A stretch of DNA of 64,000 bases. Source: Dysgonomonas hofstadii (GTDB lineage Bacteria > Bacteroidota > Bacteroidia > Bacteroidales > Dysgonomonadaceae). A program made the position numbers and the translations under genes. The stretch covers positions 1-64,000 of the forward strand of contig NZ_JACIEP010000020.1 of NCBI RefSeq assembly GCF_014196915.1. The letters run 5' to 3'. This document shows, one piece after another, positions 5,619 through 52,445 of this stretch; position 1 is the first letter of the stretch; each line of letters starts with the position of its first letter. The notes under the pieces are model-generated. The model was not told the DNA's origin, ran no database searches, and saw only the letters and a list, made by a program, of their open reading frames with translations.

Positions 5619-7280
5619 ATGACATTTGAGCCATATTATATTGTACTGATTCTTTTCTGGATACTCGTCTTGATTTTCAATTTTAAAGAAATTGAAAGAG
5701 CAAAGACGATCGAGAGTAAACAGGATCGACAGTATATTTATTGGATACAACTAGTGCTTTTGGTGGGAGTTATTGTGCGTACACTACCTGTTAATATACC
5801 TGCCGGAATTTTCTTTGATGAGGCTATGAGTGGATATGATGCATGGTGTTTAGCCTATTATGGTGTCGATCAGCATCTAACTTCTTATCCGGTCTATTTG
5901 CGATCGTGGGGTGGTGGAATGAATGCGTTATATGCTTATATTTCGATTCCTTTTATAAAATGTTTCGGACTATCGCTGCCAGTGTTCAGATTGCCAATGG
6001 CTCTTGTTAGTTGCTTCTCTTTGCTTCTTTTATATTATACTTTGAGAAAAACGTCGATGAACTATTTGCTCATCTTTTTTATTATGTTTCTGATGATAGT
6101 TAATCCATGGCATATAATGAAAAGCAGGTGGGCTTTGGAGTCGAATATCGCTCCTGATATTATATTGATAGGGATATGTTTTCTTATATTAGGATATAAT
6201 TCTATATCCGATAAAAAAAAGCGGGCATTCTTTTTTGCCGGATTCTTTTTTCTTGCCTTATCGGCATATGGTTATGCTGTAACGTGGTTTATGCTGCCCT
6301 TGTTTTGTCTGTTTCTGTTTGTATTTCTTTATAAAAAGAGAAAGATAAGAAAATATGAGATTGGTCTCTATTCACTCGAATTATTGATACTAGTATTCCC
6401 TTTGATTTTATTTGCTTTTTTAATCTTGACAAATGGAGAGCAATTTCGGTTAGGGCTAACTATAACAACATTAGAAGAAAATCGGCATAATAGCACCACG
6501 CTTTTTGGAGAGGGTGATTTTTTACCTCAAATAGTGATGTATCTAAAGAAGATATTCAACCTTCTTATACTCGGAGATGATACCTATAGATGGAATACAT
6601 TTTATCTGTTTGGCCAATTTTATAATATATTACTTATCCCCATACTTATTTTTTCTTTTTATCTATTACGAAAGAGGAAATACCATAATATTTCTGATAG
6701 TTTATTTATTCTGTGGCTAATGGCTTCTGTTCCGATCGTGTTTTTGGTGGAGCCAAATGTAAATCATTGGAATGTACTATGGTTCCCTCTGATATATTTT
6801 ACAGGAAGGGGATTGTATTTTTGTGCTGAAAAATATTACTATGTAAAGTATCTAATCATTGGAGGACTAATATTACTTTTTGTGATGTTTAGTAGAAAAT
6901 ATATTACATTTTTTGGACATGTTGATACCTCTGAACTTTCTGGTTTTGTAGGTGAATACGAGGGGTTTATCAGCTTTGCTAAAACGAAAGAGTTTGACAG
7001 AATATATTTTGATGGGTCATATCCTATGGTGTTGTTCTACAATCCTGTCAGTCCTTATATAGTGGCTTCCACAAAGAAGAAAAGACTGGACTCTTATAAT
7101 ATTTTCAATAGCGTCGAAGGATATGATAAATTTCGTTTTTATCTTCCGTCGGATAATATAGAACCGACCCCTAAAACCGCTTATATACTAAGAAACTACA
7201 GATTGAAATATTCAAATATTGATGTCGATAAATATAATATAGATAAAGGAGAAGTATTTTTCATTATCTGGAATGAGTAA
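5619..7280 (+). CDS. GT-C fold (family 39-like) membrane glycosyltransferase
   Basis: This 553-residue protein has about ten to eleven membrane segments. The first extracytoplasmic loop carries the acidic pair FDEA (Asp67-Glu68), the position of the catalytic acid in PMT/ArnT-type glycosyltransferases that use lipid-linked sugar donors. A soluble C-terminal domain of about 110 residues follows the last membrane segment. Donor and acceptor cannot be read from the sequence. The start ATG is 2 bp after yitT, and the 3' end overlaps the SDR gene by 8 bp, so translation is probably coupled. Confidence 0.75.
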   Translation: MTFEPYYIVLILFWILVLIFNFKEIERAKTIESKQDRQYIYWIQLVLLVGVIVRTLPVNIPAGIFFDEAMSGYDAWCLAYYGVDQHLTSYPVYLRSWGGGMNALYAYISIPFIKCFGLSLPVFRLPMALVSCFSLLLLYYTLRKTSMNYLLIFFIMFLMIVNPWHIMKSRWALESNIAPDIILIGICFLILGYNSISDKKKRAFFFAGFFFLALSAYGYAVTWFMLPLFCLFLFVFLYKKRKIRKYEIGLYSLELLILVFPLILFAFLILTNGEQFRLGLTITTLEENRHNSTTLFGEGDFLPQIVMYLKKIFNLLILGDDTYRWNTFYLFGQFYNILLIPILIFSFYLLRKRKYHNISDSLFILWLMASVPIVFLVEPNVNHWNVLWFPLIYFTGRGLYFCAEKYYYVKYLIIGGLILLFVMFSRKYITFFGHVDTSELSGFVGEYEGFISFAKTKEFDRIYFDGSYPMVLFYNPVSPYIVASTKKKRLDSYNIFNSVEGYDKFRFYLPSDNIEPTPKTAYILRNYRLKYSNIDVDKYNIDKGEVFFIIWNE

Positions 7281-9398: not shown

Positions 9399-9428
9399 AA
9401 TCTTCTTTTGAAATTATGGACAAAGAAA

Positions 9429-9460
9429 CAGAATTTTAATGCTACTGCATTAAAATTCTG
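9429..9460 (-). promoter_or_regulatory. Perfect 14-bp hairpin in the PAP2 leader
   Basis: CAGAATTTTAATGC (9429-9442) and GCATTAAAATTCTG (9447-9460) are exact reverse complements around the loop TACT. On the minus strand this lies 31 bp before the PAP2 start codon and is not followed by a T-run, so it does not look like a terminator. It could be an operator or a leader-RNA hairpin; function unknown. Confidence 0.45.
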
Positions 9461-9565
9461 TCAATCTTTGTACTTTTTAGCTTTTCAGGGGCTCATTTTT
9501 TGGGGTATAATGACACATTATGGATAATGCCCGCAAATAGCAAATTGTAAGCGCTGAATGTTAAA

Positions 9566-9738
9566 GCTTTACAAACTTTACATGTTTTACAGTTTTTTCT
9601 TCTCCCGTCTCTTTCTTATTGATGCAATCTACCTTATCTACCTGTCAATATATTATTTTTCAAAGACCGCTTTTTATTAGCCACTGGCTAATAGCTATTA
9701 GCTTTTTAGTTAAAACCTGACACATCTGACAAGTTTTC
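9566..9738 (-). repeat. 9-bp tandem repeats upstream of the PAP2 gene
   Basis: On the minus strand, 9566-9594 reads as three 9-bp units (TGTAAAACA TGTAAAGTT TGTAAAGCT). Positions 9713-9738 read as two (TGTCAGATG TGTCAGGTT). Both point toward the PAP2 gene, 170-340 bp away, like the copies upstream of ltrA, rbfA and the TonB receptor gene. Confidence 0.5.
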
Positions 9739-9782
9739 TCGCAAAGTAGCAAAGTGTAATTTTAATTTATACTCTCTCTGTT

Positions 9783-9953
9783 TCTCCCCCCAAGGGGTAG
9801 GGCTGTTAAGTTCTCTGCTTTGTTCTGTTATTTTCTGCTGTCATCCTGAGTGAAACGAAGGATCTCTTATCTTGCAAGAGATGTTTCACTCCGTTCAACA
9901 TGACAAAGAGGGTATAAATTCAGAACTTAACAGCCCTGCCCCTTGGGGGGAGA
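9783..9953. repeat. MITE-like element with 32-bp terminal inverted repeats
   Basis: The arms 9783-9814 and 9922-9953 are inverted copies of 32 bp with a single mismatch; each begins TCTCCCCCCAAGGGG and ends GGGCTGTTAAGTTCT. Inside is a second imperfect inverted repeat from TGTCAT (9839) to ATGACA (9904), with a central ATCTCTT/AAGAGAT hairpin. The inner unit recurs at 49095-49164 with different outer arms. It has no coding capacity. The structure suggests a nested, non-autonomous mobile element. Confidence 0.6.
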
Positions 9954-9989
9954 CGGAGGGGGCTTCTATTACATAGATAAATATCCCCA

Positions 9990-10025
9990 AAAAAAATGCA
10001 GGGTTGCCCACCGGATAACCCTGCA
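9990..10025 (-). terminator. Minus-strand terminator-like hairpin in the 1.9-kb gap
   Basis: TGCAGGGTT (9997-10005) pairs with AACCCTGCA (10017-10025). On the minus strand the stem is followed by a run of about seven T, the form of an intrinsic terminator. No ordinary gene ends here; the nearest minus-strand unit upstream of it is the micro-ORF at 10536-10631, so it may end that transcript. Confidence 0.5.
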
Positions 10026-11284
10026 TTCTCATCGACAGTCATCAACTGTCATTTTTATACATAATTAACTGCACTTCGTTCCGTTGAACGTTGCCTCGCC
10101 TGCGCTCCGTCGATTGCTTCGCAATCCATCATTCATCATAATAGGTTTGTTTCCGGCGATACTTTCAAAAAGCCGTTTATCCCCTATTTTCACAAACGGT
10201 AGAATAAAAGTTGAAGACAATTTTGTTAAAAGACAAGACAAAAAAATTACCGGCGGTAAGTAAATATCCCGGAAACAAAGAACTTATTAAGAGAATGAAT
10301 AGTGTAGCCTCCGCACCGGATACACCTGTGGCGGAAAATATAAGGCTGCGGAAATTTTGAGAAAAACTTCCGGAGTTTTTAATAATTTATAAAATATTTT
10401 TTAGGTTATTGCGCATTGGTGCGCGCAGTATTGCGCAGGTGTTCAGATAACCCCGCGTGATATATATGCACAGGAGATAAGTGCACAGGAAATGCGCATA
10501 AAAAAGTACCGGGAGTAATAAAAGGGGTTGGTCAGTTAATGATGTGCTCTCTCTAATAAAACAATGCTAACTTGCAAATTTCCAGTCGGAAAAATGGCAC
10601 ATAGTTTTGCATCTTCGTGAGTTAATGTCATCCTTATTTGTATCTGTTTGCTCCTTATCTGTTCGCTAGTATAGGGAATGAATTTAAAAATGAAAAATTA
10701 TTAGCAAAAAATTAACAAATGAAAAATCTTTTTTTTACGGGGATACGTAATATTATCTAGAAAGTTGTCGTTTATAATTTATTGTAATAGATGGAAAAGT
10801 TACCGGGAATAGAGTTGTTGCTAAAAGAATTGGTTAACTGCAAGTTTCGTATTGTTAGAATAAAAATAACAGGTATAACCTTGCATTTTCCATGCATTGT
10901 TATACCTTTGTTTAGAATTTAGCAGGTGAAAAGTATCTTTACTTACTATTTTTGGTTGAGTTGGCAAAGGGAAATCATGCAAAAACTCATTCTTTATTAG
11001 CTTTACTTTCGGGATCAGAGCGATGAATCCCGTTTCAATTTATTTGAAAAAAATACTTGGATACTTTGATAATAACTACAGAGTTGCCAAATTGTATGAT
11101 TCAATAATGGAAGCCGCTTGTATGGTGGAAAAGCCCGGGTTGGGAGAATAAAATGGATCATATTCTTTTGTAAATCTGTACTATTATATAGGCTTGATAC
11201 GATGGGATTAATCCTGTTGTAAATAGTCACAGTTTAAAGGATTGCTGCGGGTTGCAGTGTATTTTAAAAATTTAAATTAAAAAG
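10026..11284. other. Long gap without ordinary genes upstream of inositol-phosphate synthase
   Basis: No credible long gene is seen here; a 71-codon minus ORF at 11015-11230 resembles nothing known. Visible structure: a distant inverted pair GTTTGTTTCCGG (10146-10157) and CCGGAAACAAAG (10270-10281); a patch at about 10400-10500 with recurring TGCGCA and GTGCACAGGA words; the micro-ORF at 10536-10631; and a hairpin AGGTATAAC/GTTATACCT (10871-10907) whose right arm overlaps a TACCTTTG -7 box (10903-10910). If that box is used, the synthase mRNA would have a leader of about 370 nt. Confidence 0.4.
10536..10631 (-). CDS. Micro-ORF copy A of a dispersed three-member family
   Basis: An ATG-started frame of 31 codons encodes a peptide whose core IFPTGNLQVSIVLLER matches the micro-ORF at 44994-45101. 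The two align without gaps for 28 codons, and both begin MxLTH. A third relative is at 28069-28191. DNA similarity extends about 50 bp upstream, where this copy has TATACTAG in place of a TAnnTTTG box. A minus-strand terminator-like hairpin lies about 500 bp downstream. Whether the peptide is made is unknown, but the shared frame in otherwise drifting intergenic DNA suggests it. Confidence 0.4.
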   Translation of the reverse strand: MTLTHEDAKLCAIFPTGNLQVSIVLLERAHH

Positions 11285-28068: not shown

Positions 28069-28191
<123 letters not shown>

Positions 28192-28659
28192 TCCTTTATT
28201 CTAAATTTAACTTATTACCATCCTATTTATCTGCTTCAGGGAATTTTTTTCCTTTTGAGGTTACATGTGTTTATATTCACGCGTGGTTTAATGAATACAC
28301 GTATGCGTATATTCTAAATATTTTTTTTAGAAAAAACAAATTATCCGATTTTTTCGAAATCTGTTTTCGAAAACAGATTTTCTATTTATTCCCATTAACA
28401 GGGAATCACTCAATTTATCTTTTCAATATTGGAGAGAGCAAGGCTGCTAAAAGGAACGTAATTGCATTTTGCGGACCTTTTCCTTCTATTCATTCTACAA
28501 ATTGTTTGTCTTTAAATTTGTCTTTGAATATTAATATTTATCTGTTTGTGAAAACGGATTTGTTAAGTTTAGCTTGTAAAATGAAGAGTTTATGCCGCCT
28601 TGTTTCCCTCCGATATCAAAATACAATCATAGCACAAATTGATAATTATAAACTAAAAA
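28192..28659. other. Intergenic region with 24-bp palindrome
   Basis: No gene is seen. A perfect 24-bp palindrome (AAATCTGTTTTC / GAAAACAGATTT, 28357-28380), followed by TCTATTTATT, could terminate a transcript that covers micro-ORF C. No convincing promoter for the gene at 28660 is visible. Confidence 0.4.
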
Positions 28660-30117
28660 ATGCGACTTATGGATCTTAACAAACTAACAACAACTTGCTT
28701 TGTATTCCTGATACTTTTCTTGTCATTATCGACATTACAGGCGCAGGTTACAATCGGAACAAATAAACCACCTGAAAAATTTTCAGTATTAGAGGTTTCA
28801 ACAATGTCTACAAAAGGCGGATTGAGGCTGCCCATATTGACTACTCAGGAAAAAACAGATTTGGCTATAAACAGCCTTACCAATCCGGATGAGGTGTCTA
28901 ATGCTTTTGGTTTGACCATCTTTAACAAAGATACAGGATGTATTGAATATTGGAATTCCCAGAAATGGATCAGTCTCTGTGATGGCGGATCGGAAGGCAC
29001 AGTTGATTTTTCTAATTGTAATGCTATAACTGTGGAAGGGGTGTATGATACTGATCTGGCTCCTAAAGAACAAAGTTTAAGGATTGTGGTTCCGGTGACA
29101 ATAACTTCTCTTGGAACTTATAGCTATACTGCTACAGTAAATAATGTTACCTTTCAGGCGAAAGGAACATTTGTTAATTTCGGACCTCAGGATGTTTATT
29201 TATATCCCGTAAGCACCAGCGGAACAGTACAGGCTGGGGTTACATTACCTGCGACAATTGAAATAGGACCTCTCACAGAAGGAGGTTCTATTGTGTGTAC
29301 TAATATCCTTGTTAAATTTGTCAGTAGAAAGACCTCGATACTTACAATACTCAATTTAACGGGAGGAGAAGATGACTGGGATATTACAGCTAGTAATGGA
29401 GGCGATTATTCGGCAAATTCTCCGGTTGGTTGGGCGGCCCGTTGGGTCGCAGGTACTACAACATTGTCGGGCGTGACTAAAACCGCTTTGGAGTATGCGG
29501 GTACTGCGGGGATACAGATTATCAGCCTTAATCCTACTGCCGGTGGAGCAATCGCTACACTCGATGAAACATTGGCAGATGTTTCTATTGTTTGGGTAGG
29601 GGCAAATGATAATTCAAATTCCCGTTTCAACTCCGGGATAGTACAAGTGTTGACAGAATGGGCAAAATCAGGCCAGGGATATATAGTAACAGTTGCGGAT
29701 AAGATAGCCGGTGGAGCAATCTCACAGAATCTTGGACTTATTATAGAGGATGGGGCTTCTGTAAACGGTTTTACGGTCGCCACCAATATGCCGGAAGTAT
29801 TTCAGGTTACAGGCGTTCCTTACAGCCTGACTAATGGACTGGAAGTGCCGAGAGCCGGAGCAAATGCAGGGTATATAACATGCAAGGGAGGAATAACCTT
29901 TTTAAAGACCGGATCGGGAGTGAGCCCTGAAAGAAAACTTGGAGTGTACAATCCCGACACATATACGTTCGGCTTTGCCGATAAATTCGGTAGTGAACAA
30001 ACTGCTTCCGGAGGATTTACTTCATCTTCTACCGGCAGTGCTGCTTTAGCTTATAATTTACAGCGTGTCCTTGTCGATATCTGGGCATATATGTTACAGA
30101 ATGCGCCTATAAAATAA
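28660..30117 (+). CDS. Secreted protein of unknown function
   Basis: This 485-residue protein has an N-terminal signal peptide ending near LQAQVTIG. The first 90 residues (GTNKPPEKFSVLEVSTMSTKGGLRLPIL...IFNKDTGCIEYWNSQKWISLC) are a module common at the start of Bacteroidota exported proteins. Next comes an all-beta stretch (about 110-225), then an alternating alpha/beta domain (about 227-485) with IWVGAN and WAKSGQGYIVTVAD. There is no lipobox and no obvious type IX sorting tail. ATG 28669 is an alternative start. It stands alone between micro-ORF C and a terminator. Confidence 0.6.
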   Translation: MRLMDLNKLTTTCFVFLILFLSLSTLQAQVTIGTNKPPEKFSVLEVSTMSTKGGLRLPILTTQEKTDLAINSLTNPDEVSNAFGLTIFNKDTGCIEYWNSQKWISLCDGGSEGTVDFSNCNAITVEGVYDTDLAPKEQSLRIVVPVTITSLGTYSYTATVNNVTFQAKGTFVNFGPQDVYLYPVSTSGTVQAGVTLPATIEIGPLTEGGSIVCTNILVKFVSRKTSILTILNLTGGEDDWDITASNGGDYSANSPVGWAARWVAGTTTLSGVTKTALEYAGTAGIQIISLNPTAGGAIATLDETLADVSIVWVGANDNSNSRFNSGIVQVLTEWAKSGQGYIVTVADKIAGGAISQNLGLIIEDGASVNGFTVATNMPEVFQVTGVPYSLTNGLEVPRAGANAGYITCKGGITFLKTGSGVSPERKLGVYNPDTYTFGFADKFGSEQTASGGFTSSSTGSAALAYNLQRVLVDIWAYMLQNAPIK

Positions 30118-43139: not shown

Positions 43140-43547
43140 TTACATTTGGGGATTTTCTTCAGGGATGTATTCTGATTCCTTGTAATAATACACGTTTGTT
43201 TCAAAGTTATCATAAACGAGTTCAAGATGCCCATGAGCCTCTAATTCTTCTAACAGAGGCATTATCCTTTCTTTTTTATAATTAGAATGAGATGTCAGGA
43301 TATATATAGGGGAGTTTTCCTTTATCGTCTTTATGTCTTGTCTATTACAGCTATCCATAAAGAATCCTTCACCAAGTATTACATTATTCTCGAATCCGGC
43401 AAACGAGGTTTCATTGTAGCTGTTTTTATAGGAAAACCCAGGTATACTAAGATAGTAAACATACAACATTTCATTCTTATTTATATTAGCTCTAATATAA
43501 TCAATAGCCTGATTTGTTTCTTCTGTGCGCCTGTACCGGTTGTTCAT
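43140..43547 (-). pseudogene. C-terminal part of a frameshifted glycosyltransferase
   Basis: This 135-codon frame starts inside the end of the next gene upstream (47-bp overlap). Its sequence TEETNQAIDYIRANINKNEMLYVYY... is what normally follows the last membrane segment in Bacteroidota GT-C proteins: a soluble domain beginning with a conserved TRPLLEYI-like stretch. It therefore looks like the tail of the 43501-44664 protein, displaced by a frameshift at about 43515-43550. Separate translation from the internal ATG (MNNRYRR) is possible but less likely. Confidence 0.6.
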
Positions 43548-44664
43548 ATTTGTATTTCTGTACCCCGGTTGTAGATAATAGCATGATGATAAATATTGTT
43601 GTGGCTATTGTATTCTGAGTTCTGTTGGTTGAATATAATTTATCCAGATAAAAGAAAAATAAGATTCCGGTTATAGGATATATGAAGAGGAATAAACGTA
43701 CAGAAACCGGATACATGCCAAGCATTGAAGCAAATAATGTAATAATTATACCTCCGCATACAATGAATATGTATTTATTCTTATCACAAAATATATTTAT
43801 AAATACACCAATTATAACAATACTTGTAATAAGTATTTTGTAAGAGCCCAGCTGATCAATAATTGTTGATATGAGAGTTTTTAATCTAACCACATCCTCA
43901 TAGCTGGTCGGAATAAGAGGGAGTCTGTAATCTTCCCAAAATATGGACATTTCCCCTTGATCTATAACAGGTGCAAGCCAAAAGAAATAATAGGCGATAA
44001 AACTTAGAAGAACAGCAACACCGCAGTATATGCTAAATTTAAATCTGGAATAATCCTTTTTTATTAAACCATCAATGAACTCGTACAATAATATACTTCC
44101 AATGAAAAAACAACAGGGATTAGACAACCATATAAGAGCAGCATATAGCATAATAACAATGAATCTGTTCGTTTTCTTTTCCGTGTAAAAATAGAAAATA
44201 ACGATCGTCAGCAATACAGCAACACAATCTGTCATATAAGGCTTAAATTCGTTCGAATACATGATCAATACTGCGAGATTGGATATAAATGCCACTCCCA
44301 ATAGAGGGAACCTGATAGGACATATTTTTTTCAGAAAATAAAAGCAGATCCCCAACAGAATAATGTATGAAATGAAAGACCAAAGGCGAAGAGTAAATTC
44401 TGAGTTTCCCAATAAAGTTGTGATAATTTTTACTATATATAAGTAGATAACAGGTGCAGATTGGTTCCACTCAAAAATATCTGAAGTGAGGTCGGTAATC
44501 CCCCTCTGACAAAATGAGTAGGCAAGCATCGCCTCGTCCAGCCATAAACTTCGCTCTGTTAGATTAAGGCTAAAGCTGGTATATACAGAGGCAATAATAG
44601 TAATAAGGCACAGTAGATTAATAGAACATTTTGATAAGAATTCTATGTTTTTAGTTTTCGTCAT
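43501..44664 (-). pseudogene. Membrane glycosyltransferase (GT-C type), probably frameshifted near its end
   Basis: This 387-codon frame has about ten membrane segments. The LTERSLWLDEAMLAYSF block carries the Asp-Glu pair of GT39/ArnT-like enzymes, and NQSAPVIYLYIVK follows, as is usual for lipid-linked sugar transferases. The last 20 residues (QAHRRNKSGY) look out of frame, and the expected C-terminal domain is found in another frame directly downstream (43140-43547). The full protein would be about 508 residues. A sequencing error, or a recent mutation, would explain the split. Confidence 0.65.
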
Positions 44665-44707: not shown

Positions 44708-44917
44708 TTATTGCAATGTTTTGGCACTAATTCCTATTCTAATGTTTACATCCGGATATAGATCGGACATAAGCATATAGTCTTCGCCAAAATGTTGCGA
44801 CAGATTAATTCCCTTTCGTAAACAAGAAAACAATGATAGAGACACACTCAGAAAACAGAACAGCAAAATACCAATCCGATTCCTTTTTACCTCAAATAAG
44901 GGAAAGTACGGATGCAA
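44708..44917 (-). CDS. Doubtful small ORF upstream of the glycosyltransferase
   Basis: A 69-codon frame has one hydrophobic segment (IGILLFCFLSVSLSLF) and the tail LSQHFGEDYMLMSDLYPDVNIRIG. It starts at a TTG and has no match I recognise. It lies 43 bp before the glycosyltransferase and about 75 bp after micro-ORF B, on the same strand. It could be a small membrane protein, a remnant of a longer gene, or chance. Confidence 0.25.
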   Translation of the reverse strand: MHPYFPLFEVKRNRIGILLFCFLSVSLSLFSCLRKGINLSQHFGEDYMLMSDLYPDVNIRIGISAKTLQ

Positions 44918-44993
44918 TAAATCGCCAACTATCTTTTTACGGATAAAAGACAGTTGTAATTTGTTTTTGTAAAAATTGCGATGTAAATTCGCG

Positions 44994-45101
44994 CTACGCG
45001 TGTGGTGGAGAATGGTCTCTCTCTAACAAAAAAAAGCTAACATCCAAATTTTCAGACGGAAAAATGAAATGTAGTATTGCTTTTCTGTGTGTTAAAATCA
45101 T
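44994..45101 (-). CDS. Micro-ORF copy B of a dispersed three-member family
   Basis: A 35-codon frame has the core IFPSENLDVSFFLLER followed by a short tail (DHSPPHA). It aligns without gaps to copy A (10536-10631) over 28 codons, and its 3' half aligns to copy C (28069-28191). An exact TATATTTG -7 box lies 33 bp upstream on the minus strand (45134-45141), so this copy has the best promoter of the three. Synonymous as well as non-synonymous changes separate A and B. The rest of the 44665-45247 gap holds only the doubtful 69-codon ORF. Confidence 0.42.
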   Translation of the reverse strand: MILTHRKAILHFIFPSENLDVSFFLLERDHSPPHA

Positions 45102-45133: not shown

Positions 45134-45141
45134 CAAATATA
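45134..45141 (-). promoter_or_regulatory. Promoter -7 box before micro-ORF B
   Basis: CAAATATA on the plus strand is TATATTTG on the minus strand, an exact match. No minus-strand gene other than the micro-ORF lies within 200 bp downstream. Confidence 0.45.
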
Positions 45142-49337: not shown

Positions 49338-50150
49338 TTACTCCCAATACTTGAAAAAATGATGTACAGGTCCGTGTCCTTTTCCTATCTCATAATCAGC
49401 CCCGGCGATAATGGCTTTGTTGATATAATCTTTGGCTTGTCTGACAGCCTCATTTAATGGTAAGCCATGAGCCAGAAAAGATGCAATAGCCGAAGAGAAT
49501 GTACAACCTGTTCCATGTGTGTTCTTTGTATGAACACGTTCGGATGTCAGTTCTATTATCTCGTCTGTTTCGGCATTGTAGAATACATCGGTAAGTTTTT
49601 CGTCGGAAAGATGTCCTGCTTTGAGCATAACAGAGACTTTATTACCAAATGATAGCTCCTTCACGACATCCGGCAGGTCTTTCTGACTTTTAATGCTTTT
49701 CCCAAGAAGTATCTCGGCTTCGGGTATATTGGGCGTTATTATCCTGACAATGGGGATCAGCTCTTTTTTTAGTGTTTCGATAGCTTCATCCTGCAACAGT
49801 TTATCTCCCGATGTAGCTACCATTACCGGATCTAAAACCAGATTTTTTATATTGTAATTCAATAGAGTTTTCTTTACAGCTAATATCAGTTCAGTGGAGT
49901 GGAGCATCCCTATCTTTACGGCATCGGCACCTATATCATCCAATACCGATTTTATCTGCCCTGTAACAAATGGTACAGGGATAGGGTGCACGTCGGTAAC
50001 ACCAACTGTGTTTTCGTCCACTACAGCTACTATCACAGTAGCACCATAGCATCCGCAAGCTGAAAATGTTTTCAGATCGGCCTGAATACCTGCGCCGCCA
50101 CTTGGATCGCTACCTGCTATTGATAAAGCGATTTTATAATGCTTTTTCAT
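49338..50150 (-). CDS. thiD: Hydroxymethylpyrimidine/phosphomethylpyrimidine kinase
   Basis: This 270-residue ribokinase-fold enzyme phosphorylates HMP and then HMP-P to HMP-PP. SIAGSDPSGGAGIQADLKTF at the N-terminus, the CGCYGATVIVAVV stretch, and the ATP/anion-hole motif THGTGCTFSSAIAS are all present. It is the last gene of the thiM-thiE-tenA-thiD operon, 17 bp after tenA. Confidence 0.96.
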   Translation of the reverse strand: MKKHYKIALSIAGSDPSGGAGIQADLKTFSACGCYGATVIVAVVDENTVGVTDVHPIPVPFVTGQIKSVLDDIGADAVKIGMLHSTELILAVKKTLLNYNIKNLVLDPVMVATSGDKLLQDEAIETLKKELIPIVRIITPNIPEAEILLGKSIKSQKDLPDVVKELSFGNKVSVMLKAGHLSDEKLTDVFYNAETDEIIELTSERVHTKNTHGTGCTFSSAIASFLAHGLPLNEAVRQAKDYINKAIIAGADYEIGKGHGPVHHFFKYWE

Positions 50151-50167
50151 AATTTTTTAATCAAGTT

Positions 50168-50821
50168 TTATATAGTCCATTTTTCAAGACGCCATGCGCT
50201 GTCCCAAAATAACCATTCCATTTTGGAACACATCACATAAGCTGTGGTCATTGCTTTACGTTGTTCTTCGGTACACTTTTCAGCCAGTTCATCGCAGATA
50301 GCGATAGCCGTTTTTACCGAATCTTCGAAAGCTTCGCCGCCGTAAGTATCTATCCAGCTTTGATAGGGATTGTGTCCTTTTGTCTGATTGGCCAATATAT
50401 AGTCTCCCACCTCTTTGTAAATCCAGAAACAAGGTAACACAGCCGCAACAATCACCTCGACCGGAGAGTTAGCGAGTTGCCTCAACAGGTAAGATATATA
50501 TAGCAGGCAGCTTGGCGATGCTTCTGATTTAATATTGCTTTCTGTTTTACTTACGAACGATTCATGCAATGCTTTTTCTACAGCTATACTGTCTCCTGCA
50601 AAGTGGATAAAAGCTTCTATATGTTCCGGTTTACTTAGTTTAGAGGCTATGCCCGTAAGCACTTTTCCGTATTCGGCGAGGTAAAGTGCATCCTGCTGAA
50701 TATAAAACGTAAACTTTTCTTTATCCAGCGAGCCATCTATCAATTCCTGTATAAAAGGTTGTTCAAGTATCTGTTTATAGACTGGTTCTGCTTTCTTCCA
50801 TGCGGTTTCACTCCATTTCAT
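50168..50821 (-). CDS. tenA: TenA family aminopyrimidine aminohydrolase (thiaminase II)
   Basis: This 217-residue all-helical TenA protein hydrolyses aminopyrimidine breakdown products of thiamine to HMP. Conserved features include FYIQQDALYLAEYGKVL with the active-site Asp/Tyr, ALLPCFWIYKEVG-like PCFWIYKEVGDY, and the YGGEAFEDSV region with a catalytic Glu near the C-terminal helix. It lies 7 bp after thiE. Its presence points to salvage of pyrimidine from degraded thiamine. Confidence 0.93.
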   Translation of the reverse strand: MKWSETAWKKAEPVYKQILEQPFIQELIDGSLDKEKFTFYIQQDALYLAEYGKVLTGIASKLSKPEHIEAFIHFAGDSIAVEKALHESFVSKTESNIKSEASPSCLLYISYLLRQLANSPVEVIVAAVLPCFWIYKEVGDYILANQTKGHNPYQSWIDTYGGEAFEDSVKTAIAICDELAEKCTEEQRKAMTTAYVMCSKMEWLFWDSAWRLEKWTI

Positions 50822-50828
50822 ATTTTAT

Positions 50829-51470
50829 TCATTTTTTGTTTTTCGACTCATTTACTATTTTTCTTAACTCCGAAGCAGCCAGACTTGGATCGTTCGCTGA
50901 CATAATAGCCGATACGACTGAAATACCATCTGCTCCGGCATGTATTATATCTTTGGCATTCGACTGGTTTATGCCGCCAATACCTACACTCGGGTGCTTA
51001 CTTATCCGGGTAATTTCCTTTACGCCATCCAACCCTAAGGCCGAGGCTGTGTCTGTTTTCGTCAGTGTACTGAAAACAGGGGATATGCCAATGTAATCGA
51101 CATCCAGATTATTCGCTTCTATCGTGTCTTCTATATTTTCTACCGAAAGGCCTATGATCTTATCTTTCCCCATCAATTTGCGGACTATAGGGTAGGGTAT
51201 ATCGTCCTGTCCTATATGCAGGCCATCAGCGTCGCATGCCAGCGCGATATCGAGCCTGTCGTTTATTATCAACGGAACTTTATACGGTTTCAGCAGCGTT
51301 TTCATTAGCATGGCGAGTTCGTAAAACTCTTTGCCGGAACAATCTTTTTCGCGCAGTTGAACCATTGTTACACCACCTTTTACGGCAGCTTCCACCACTT
51401 CGCTCAATGTGCGTCCGAGTGACAGGCTACGGTCGGTTACAAGATACAGGCTCAGGTCGAAAGGTAACAT
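50829..51470 (-). CDS. thiE: Thiamine-phosphate synthase
   Basis: This 213-residue TIM-barrel enzyme couples HMP-PP with thiazole phosphate to give thiamine phosphate. VTDRSLSLGRTL, VTMVQLREKDCSGKEF, INDRLDIALACDADGLHIGQDD and GISPVFSTLTKTD are the family motifs. GIGGINQSNAKDIIHAGADGISVVSAI forms the phosphate-binding end. The start is 4 bp after the thiM stop. Confidence 0.96.
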   Translation of the reverse strand: MLPFDLSLYLVTDRSLSLGRTLSEVVEAAVKGGVTMVQLREKDCSGKEFYELAMLMKTLLKPYKVPLIINDRLDIALACDADGLHIGQDDIPYPIVRKLMGKDKIIGLSVENIEDTIEANNLDVDYIGISPVFSTLTKTDTASALGLDGVKEITRISKHPSVGIGGINQSNAKDIIHAGADGISVVSAIMSANDPSLAASELRKIVNESKNKK

Positions 51471-51474
51471 AGGT

Positions 51475-52269
51475 TTATAATTTTATATTGGCTTTTATCG
51501 TATCACCATTCAGGTTGTATAGTTCATCGAGAAAGTTCACCTGTAAACTACCGTTTCCCGACGATCTGTGGGCTGCGATTTCTCCGGCAATACTCATTAT
51601 CGCCATTCCGTGCGTGGCGGCTTCCAGCAAGTCTGGGTTCACTGCCGTAAATGCGGCAACCACCGCAGTTGCCGTACATCCCATGCCTGTTACACGGGCC
51701 ATCATCGGGTTGCCGTTCTTGACTGTGCGTACATTGTCACCATCGGTAATATAATCGGTCTGCCCACTGATAACGACTACTGCATTCGTTTTTCTCGCTA
51801 ATGTTTTTGCAGACTCCAGAGCAGAGTCGGAAGAATCGGTACTGTCCACCCCTTTGGTCTGTATTCCGGCGTTGCATAATGCCATTATTTCAGATGCATT
51901 TCCCCTGATAACAGATGGTTTGCACTCTTCAATTATCTGCTTGCATACATTTGTCCTGTATGGTGTAGCTCCTGCGCCTACAGGATCGAATACTATGGGA
52001 GTACCTTTTTCTAATGCGGTTTTCCCGGCAATAAGCATTGCTTTTACCCATTCAGGCTCAAGCGTGCCTATGTTTATTACCAGGGCAGAAGCAATACTCG
52101 CCATATCGGCTACTTCTTCGAGCGAATGTGCCATAACAGGGGATGCCCCTACAGCTAGCAGTCCGTTGGCTGTGTTGTTCATTACTACATAATTTGTGAT
52201 ATTATGTATCAAAGGCGATTTTTCTCTGACCAGTTCCAGATCCCGTATTAAATTGGAAATATTAATCAT
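51475..52269 (-). CDS. thiM: Hydroxyethylthiazole kinase
   Basis: This 264-residue ribokinase-like enzyme phosphorylates 4-methyl-5-hydroxyethylthiazole for thiamine salvage. [56 protein letters not shown] and the catalytic Cys region [11 protein letters not shown] are diagnostic. The frame opens upstream at 52308, but that part lies in the riboswitch terminator, so the start is ATG 52269 (MINISNL). It is the first gene of the thiamine salvage operon. Confidence 0.95.
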
Positions 52270-52289
52270 ATTTAATTCGTGTTTTAAAT

Positions 52290-52319
52290 GAAAAAGCCGT
52301 CTCATCAAATGAAACGGCT
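52290..52319 (-). terminator. Riboswitch-controlled terminator before thiM
   Basis: On the minus strand AGCCGTTTCAT pairs with ATGAGACGGCT (one mismatch, 3-nt loop) and is followed by TTTTT. It lies between the TPP aptamer and the thiM start, the place of a transcription-attenuating expression platform. Confidence 0.8.
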
Positions 52320-52354
52320 GGTAAATATATCTGATAAATTATATACTTATAGAT

Positions 52355-52445
52355 TTTACCGTTTCCCTACGATGCCAATTACAACATATCAGGTTCAAGG
52401 GTTTAATCTCAGCTCTTTCTTAAGCACCCCTAACAGTACGCACAC
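52355..52445 (-). promoter_or_regulatory. TPP riboswitch (THI element)
   Basis: On the minus strand the conserved THI-box pieces occur in order: GGGGTGC, GCTGAGAT, ACCCTTGAACCTGAT, and after a short variable part GGCATCGTAGGGAA. They form the five-helix aptamer that binds thiamine pyrophosphate. With the terminator at 52290-52319 it should switch off thiM-thiE-tenA-thiD when TPP is plentiful. The region between 52446 and 52600 holds no other visible feature besides clpB's leader. Confidence 0.92.

Follow-up and report, generated by a model that had tools for sequence, protein, structure and literature searches.

The window, by which we mean the entire 64,000-nucleotide stretch of DNA analysed here, lies on contig 20 of the 44-contig, 5.04-Mb Dysgonomonas hofstadii genome and contains three short open reading frames (ORFs), here called copies A, B and C, which begin with an ATG at 10631, 45101 and 28069 and stop at 10536, 44994 and 28191, respectively, as originally predicted. 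The three loci are made up of the following features:

28069..28191, plus strand: leader ORF of copy C, which begins MDKICFDRTIFSSMFSPENLEVISILLERERE... and ends immediately past the GA tract, its frame closed in the assembly (sequence)
28150..28187, plus strand: GA tract of copy C, 38 bp (sequence)
28188..28679, plus strand: open post-tract frame of copy C, 489 nt, with a stop (28677-28679) that overlaps the start of the gene behind it (shuffle p 0.005; in phase with L204)
28660..30117, plus strand: gene downstream of copy C and its presumed target, encoding a secreted-looking protein of the 'AQVTIG' surface class, with its start at 28660 or 28669 (sequence)
44994..45101, minus strand: leader ORF of copy B, which stops 19 nt past its short tract (sequence)
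45016..45023, minus strand: GA tract of copy B, 8 bp (sequence)
45134..45141, minus strand: TATATTTG, a promoter-like -7 box upstream of copy B (sequence and motif count)
44708..45015, minus strand: open alternative frame of copy B, 305 nt, which ends 46 nt ahead of the next gene (shuffle p 0.015)
43501..44664, minus strand: gene downstream of copy B, membrane glycosyltransferase-like (PMT_2, just under the Pfam cut-off)
10536..10631, minus strand: leader ORF of copy A, with a short tract of 6-7 bp (sequence)
10123..10540, minus strand: relic leader of copy A, 423 aligned nt with 95% identity to the leader of the G000:C7 copy, L161 (alignment)

Past the tract of copy C the other two frames stop after 1 and 14 nt, and the protein encoded at 28660..30117 has no Pfam match; to judge from this layout, copy C is a typical switch of the surface class described below. 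Copy A is a putative relic: the L161 leader precedes surface-class genes, and a search for those genes at 9399-10540 behind copy A found no trace of them. Copies A and B, like some others in the family, have tracts that are now too short for much slippage, and the 8-bp tract of copy B is probably too short for frequent slippage. An Rfam scan of the window at gathering thresholds returned only a TPP riboswitch and a tRNA, and nothing at the three loci. The TPP riboswitch occupies 52347-52441 on the minus strand, just ahead of the minus-strand ORFs at 49338-52308.

The three frames had been described as a three-member family. They are indeed homologous through a common core, and beyond chance (12 places in the genome at E<=0.001 and none with a reversed pattern), but the count for the D. 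hofstadii genome is 13 copies, comprising 12 places found by DNA similarity (the 45 kb copy as query, itself included, E<=0.001, whole genome) and the 10.5 kb copy found by pattern. Across 101 genomes of the same taxonomic family (Dysgonomonas and relatives, the Dysgonomonadaceae), a 39-base core pattern matched in 20, and its reversed control in none; this pattern already includes GAGAGAGA and requires a GA seed, so that copies without such a seed are under-sampled. From genomes of this family we gathered 116 distinct copies, and a genome designated G023 has 18. The named records among 62 core-bearing stretches are Dysgonomonas, with Prevotella given for one isolate and several metagenome assemblies. 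An order-wide sample of 393 genomes yielded five with a match, namely the D. hofstadii genome, two more of the genus, one with a single hit (three mismatches) and G129, a member of another family in which we found 26 copies in this sample and 27 with an adapted pattern. In the counts that follow, loci are not independent, with several ortholog pairs and paralogs sitting on both sides of the counts; loci with N or too little flank, and in the gene survey those shorter than 4.9 kb, were left out before counting, and L177, which has a stop in the core, is absent from the class sums and present in the shuffle test of open surface frames.

Nearly all copies are ATG-started ORFs in which an ENLxVSxILLER core leads into a (GA)n tract read as (Glu-Arg)n, so that a repeat tract lies inside a short leader ORF. 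An in-frame ATG is found 10-24 codons upstream of the core in 101 of the 111 copies with enough upstream sequence (at 17 codons in 56). The 28-codon block is free of stops in 109 of 111 copies and interrupted in only two, and the frequent stops inside the core that had been named as evidence against the original prediction were thus not found; the other two frames of the block hold stops in 111/111 copies each, a figure partly forced by the core and hence unused as evidence. Among 98 tabulated copies with a tract, its length ranges from 6 to 310 bp, as read from assemblies of which many are drafts and in which the on/off call of any single locus is uncertain. One of the 13 D. hofstadii copies (L169) has no tract, and a few others have only 6-10 bp. 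All nine perfect (GA)12 places of the D. hofstadii genome among the matches listed, in which perfect matches ranked first and one-mismatch matches followed, lie directly behind the core. The tract is open in all frames (GAG AGA), its length sets the frame in which a ribosome would exit, and the lengths differ between the related locus pairs compared. The three window copies had been noted to differ in their tails, which they do, although these tails are the sequence behind the GA tract (38 bp in copy C and 6-8 bp in copies A and B); both the tract and the downstream genes, where the meaning of these loci lies, had been overlooked.

Two of the tracts, those of L179 (G023:C1:1369395) and L206 (G023:C1:3622111), reach ~310 and ~230 bp in a single-contig genome and are unusually long dinucleotide repeats for a bacterium. 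On the minus strand of L202 (G023:C1:3022726), a (GA)n tract lies ahead of the core at 5936 and a second copy lies ~1.3 kb off; this arrangement is presumably a tandem or recombined leader.

Upstream of the ORF, the box originally reported as an exact TATATTTG before the ATG of copy B is present at 45134-45141 and fits TAnnTTTG, a promoter motif of Bacteroidetes. TAnnTTTG is found 20-80 nt ahead of the ATG in 34 of 111 copies, and a zone of 15-89 nt contains 41 sites compared with 9 for the reversed motif; in G129 it is found in 14 of 17 copies. Most copies hence carry no exact box, and for these any promoter is putative.

The genes that follow the leaders are oriented with them: at 90 of 94 loci the next ORF shares the strand of the leader, compared with 60 of 100 for the upstream neighbour taken as a control, which upholds the original suggestion of a leader peptide in the form of a leader ORF. 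A phmmer comparison with 15 representatives sorts the first ORF downstream at each of the 94 loci into 42 SusC-like proteins, 24 'AQVTIG' proteins (a label coined here for secreted-looking proteins that begin AQVTIG), three ECF sigma factors, a further 21 ORFs on the leader's strand (including small ones that precede an AQVTIG gene) and four antisense ORFs. Pfam matches over the cut-off were obtained for 15 of 19 neighbour proteins, and the families represented behind leaders are the TonB plug and barrel, SusD, sigma-70 regions (ECF sigma), FecR, GH88, GH130, laminin-G, Fib_succ_major, BACON, FG-GAP and DUF6377. The D. hofstadii genome has 58 SusD matches, of which four fall within the fetched leader loci and a fifth just past one, indicating that any switch serves a minority of these systems.

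Leaders in front of SusC-like genes share a predicted hairpin. In 36 of 40 SusC leaders, the stretch from tract to gene contains a T-tailed hairpin below -15 kcal/mol that resembles a premature intrinsic terminator (four are without a strong hairpin), and the median best hairpin is -25.4, compared with -5.2 in dinucleotide shuffles. Among 20 leaderless SusC genes of the D. hofstadii genome, chosen as controls from the 58 SusD loci, only one has such a hairpin within 250 nt (median -6.8). The position of the hairpin is such that repeat number could place a stop either before it or inside and beyond it: in 35 of 36 SusC leaders the three exit frames include both one or more that stop short of the hairpin and one or more that reach it, compared with 18.6 when the stretch before the hairpin is shuffled. 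Altogether 58 of 108 frames reach the hairpin (34.2 in shuffles). The frame set by the present tract does so in 26 of 36 leaders, compared with 11.4 in shuffles and 19 expected if phase were random among the three frames. Conservation of the post-tract frame between related loci is mixed, and we treat it as weak evidence: the frame is kept in 15 of 29 aligned pairs of orthologous and paralogous loci, where ~10 would be expected (30 pairs were compared, one of which gave no alignment), and in seven of the eight SusC-linked pairs whose alignment begins no more than 9 nt from the tract.

Leaders of the surface class are built differently. A strong hairpin (below -15) occurs in only 7 of 30, so that this class mostly has no premature intrinsic terminator and is not filed as an attenuator of the Streptococcus gallolyticus pil1 type, with which it shares a similar principle only. 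What distinguishes these leaders is a single exit frame that stays open over a median of 93% of a 455-nt leader, beyond shuffles (p<0.05) in 26 of 30. In 21 of 30 cases this frame stays open across 60% or more of the leader and both others close inside the first 31 nt past the tract, a combination found 0.36 times in shuffles; the remaining nine have no clear two-shut/one-open pattern. In 24 of 30, the open frame either ends no more than 120 nt from the start of the gene or extends deep into it; its stop and the gene start overlap as ATGA at 5 of 83 loci of all classes. As assembled, the current phase selects the open frame in 8 of 30 surface leaders, near the one third expected if random, and L169, with its tract lost, is fixed in a long open frame. 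The open frame of copy C and that of L204, the best pair, are 61% identical with gaps of only 3, 3, 3 and 9 nt, such that the frames coincide throughout, and the substitutions between them (53, 67 and 50 by codon position) gave no sign of amino-acid constraint. Across 12 pairs, the phase coincidence of open surface frames varies from 0.09 to 1.00. GCGCAT/GCGCGT-rich stretches recur in several Dysgonomonas surface-class leaders.

The same layout is found in a second Bacteroidales family. We examined 20 of the 27 copies in G129, the remaining seven being not fetched, duplicate or cut off. Tracts in these 20 measure 10-24 bp, and each copy has two frames that close inside 31 nt past the tract; in 19, those for which the contig is long enough, the third frame runs on without a stop for 279 nt or more. 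For the 18 copies with an identified gene, the long frame exceeds shuffles in every case; six run in frame into the gene and four overlap its start by ATGA. All three of the G129 downstream proteins tested contain FG-GAP repeats. The exit frame as assembled is closed in 20 of 20 copies, an outcome with a chance of 0.0003 if phase were random and a contrast with Dysgonomonas, in which the frame is open in 8 of 30 surface leaders and extends to the hairpin in 26 of 36 SusC leaders; possibly a factor besides random phase acts in G129, or tracts collapsed in assembly. An inverted repeat, TGCGCGTAAT...ATTACGCA, is present ~25-65 nt past the tract in most of the G129 leaders listed (L233-L252).

We hypothesize, with considerable confidence, that the copies are translated leader ORFs, each belonging to a phase-variable switch, a reading based on their sequence and setting. 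A ribosome would start at the conserved ATG, cross the core and the (GA)n tract, and exit in a frame set by tract length, which slippage of the tract would change. In front of a SusC/SusD operon, a frame that stops ahead of the intrinsic-terminator-like hairpin would let the terminator form, leaving the operon off, and another frame would take the ribosome into or through the hairpin, blocking the terminator and turning the operon on; the direction of this on/off assignment is taken by analogy from the S. gallolyticus precedent. In front of surface genes, two frames would stop early and the third, which sometimes overlaps the start of the gene, would let ribosomes travel along the mRNA as far as that start, thereby protecting the leader from premature termination or coupling translation. 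Single cells could thus switch sugar-uptake and surface genes on and off at random. The ORF, the tract, the predicted hairpins, the frame pattern and the link to downstream genes are seen directly in the sequence; we infer that tracts are unstable within a strain, that the leaders are transcribed and that exit frame affects expression. We also lean, with less assurance, towards genome-wide random switching, in which one copied module of upstream ORF and GA tract would gate unrelated genes in two ways. For SusC/SusD the readout would be a terminator; for surface-protein genes it would be a leader frame free of stops over ~280-650 nt, which enters the gene, overlaps it or ends close by. This second readout would be phase variation through frame-gated ribosome traffic along a leader with an irrelevant product. 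Its layout is present in two Bacteroidales families, and we found no description of such a mechanism among the open-access matches listed.

An unlikely alternative, though the one that fares best, is a classical sensing attenuator, in which the ribosome would sense charged tRNA-Arg or tRNA-Glu, translation rate or nascent-peptide stalling at ENLxVSxILL, and the GA tract would supply regulatory codons, its length being no switch. Classical attenuators pair a leader peptide with a terminator, variation is lower in the core than in the N-terminal part, and the excess of SusC leaders whose current frame reaches the hairpin, above both shuffles and random phase, would fit such a mechanism. Nothing shared by the downstream genes seen connects them with Arg or Glu, however: unlike the regulatory codons of a trp-type attenuator, Glu and Arg codons do not match the products of these operons, which are SusC/SusD, surface proteins and glycoside hydrolases. 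The surface class, mostly without a strong terminator, nonetheless has two frames shut and one open, a pattern that makes sense if the exit frame matters, and the spread of tract lengths (6 to 310 bp) also speaks against this alternative.

Still less probable is a dispersed microprotein, a (Glu-Arg)n peptide that would act in the cell and for which a position before surface genes would be secondary. This idea gains from the conservation of ATG, frame and core over ~100 copies and from Leu-codon swaps and E/D or I/V exchanges in the core among the matches listed, and a translated microprotein under selection was among the original proposals; codon-level comparison does not bear it out. Over 17 pairs of related copies, the leader frame has pS 0.115, pN 0.097 and dN/dS 0.83, no lower than the 0.46 and 0.42 of the other two frames of the same stretch, and hence gives no sign of purifying selection on amino acids. 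In the same pairs, the leader frame contains one stop in 476 codons, and its two alternatives contain 38 and 46 codons with stops. The frame is kept, and the peptide can vary freely. At synonymous and nonsynonymous sites alike, the core has changed less than the N-terminal part, so that part of its conservation lies at the level of nucleic acid or stems from recent copying. The end of the peptide past the tract varies from copy to copy, and the ties to downstream genes, the terminator-like hairpins and the open leader frames would all be needless for a free peptide.

Least probable is the originally suggested mobile repeat, that is, a mobile or recombining intergenic repeat (MITE- or REP-like) with a slippage-prone end, hitch-hiking by large genes: the many dispersed copies, their nearly identical core and the longer flanks common to some copies in one genome (L161, L162 and window copy A) would suit it, but the gene that follows shares the leader's strand at 90 of 94 loci, most copies differ in their flanks, the exact pattern had 0 matches in viral contigs, and related genomes carry copies at matching loci (some sharing longer flanks), several G009/G023 pairs matching on both flanks, which indicates that copies stay in place.

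If the switch reading is correct, a set of glycan-uptake and surface-protein genes would be switched by random repeat slippage rather than by DNA inversion of the Bacteroides style, and the 39-base pattern would flag switchable genes in a genome and predict their state from sequence, which is directly testable. These loci would also represent a class of short conserved ORFs in which translation, not its product, seems to be kept by selection, which calls for care in small-protein surveys.

This family is best read as a phase-variable leader-ORF switch, of a kind that, among the open-access matches listed, is described for one species. Searches of the open-access literature found no paper joining Dysgonomonas, phase variation and SusC, and none on Dysgonomonas with a simple sequence repeat; in the broader open-access literature, Danne et al. 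2014 was the only direct precedent recognised among the matches listed, and the accessible part of one review (PMC11868660) does not contain the words gallolyticus, attenuation, untranslated or terminator. As reported in the available text of Danne et al. 2014 (PMC3894217), the pil1 and pil3 pili of S. gallolyticus are subject to phase-variable leader-peptide attenuation, shown by experiment, in which the number of GCAGA repeats in pil1 sets the length of the leader and leaders that end in or beyond the hairpin raise transcription. In both systems, as far as that text allows the comparison, a repeat lies in a short leader ORF with a terminator hairpin behind it (predicted here, in the SusC class) and a surface output, and repeat number can place the stop before, in or beyond the hairpin, reaching the hairpin meaning expression in S. 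gallolyticus. The repeat unit is a GCAGA pentamer there and a GA dinucleotide here; two pilus loci there contrast with 13 copies in D. hofstadii, 18 in G023 and 27 in G129, and the targets here are SusC/SusD and surface proteins rather than pili. The second output, an open frame toward the gene and mostly no strong hairpin, also sets this family apart from the system in the described portion of that work.

Two further systems bear comparison. In Bacteroides fragilis, a member of the same order, phase variation of SusC/SusD proteins is driven by an invertase (Nakayama-Imaohji et al. 2009, as cited in the accessible part of PMC11868660); random on/off of SusC/SusD outer-membrane proteins would be common to both, with a site-specific DNA invertase as the switch there and the proposed repeat-tract frame of a leader ORF here. 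The Helicobacter pylori gene oipA undergoes CT-repeat phase variation, according to the available part of PMC10564699, and couples a dinucleotide repeat to frame-dependent expression of a surface protein, as is proposed here; the repeat there lies at the 5' end of oipA itself and here within a distinct leader ORF that encodes no conserved sequence. With an open-frame output that is apparently undescribed, the Dysgonomonas family thus appears to be a multiplied and partly different variant of the S. gallolyticus kind.
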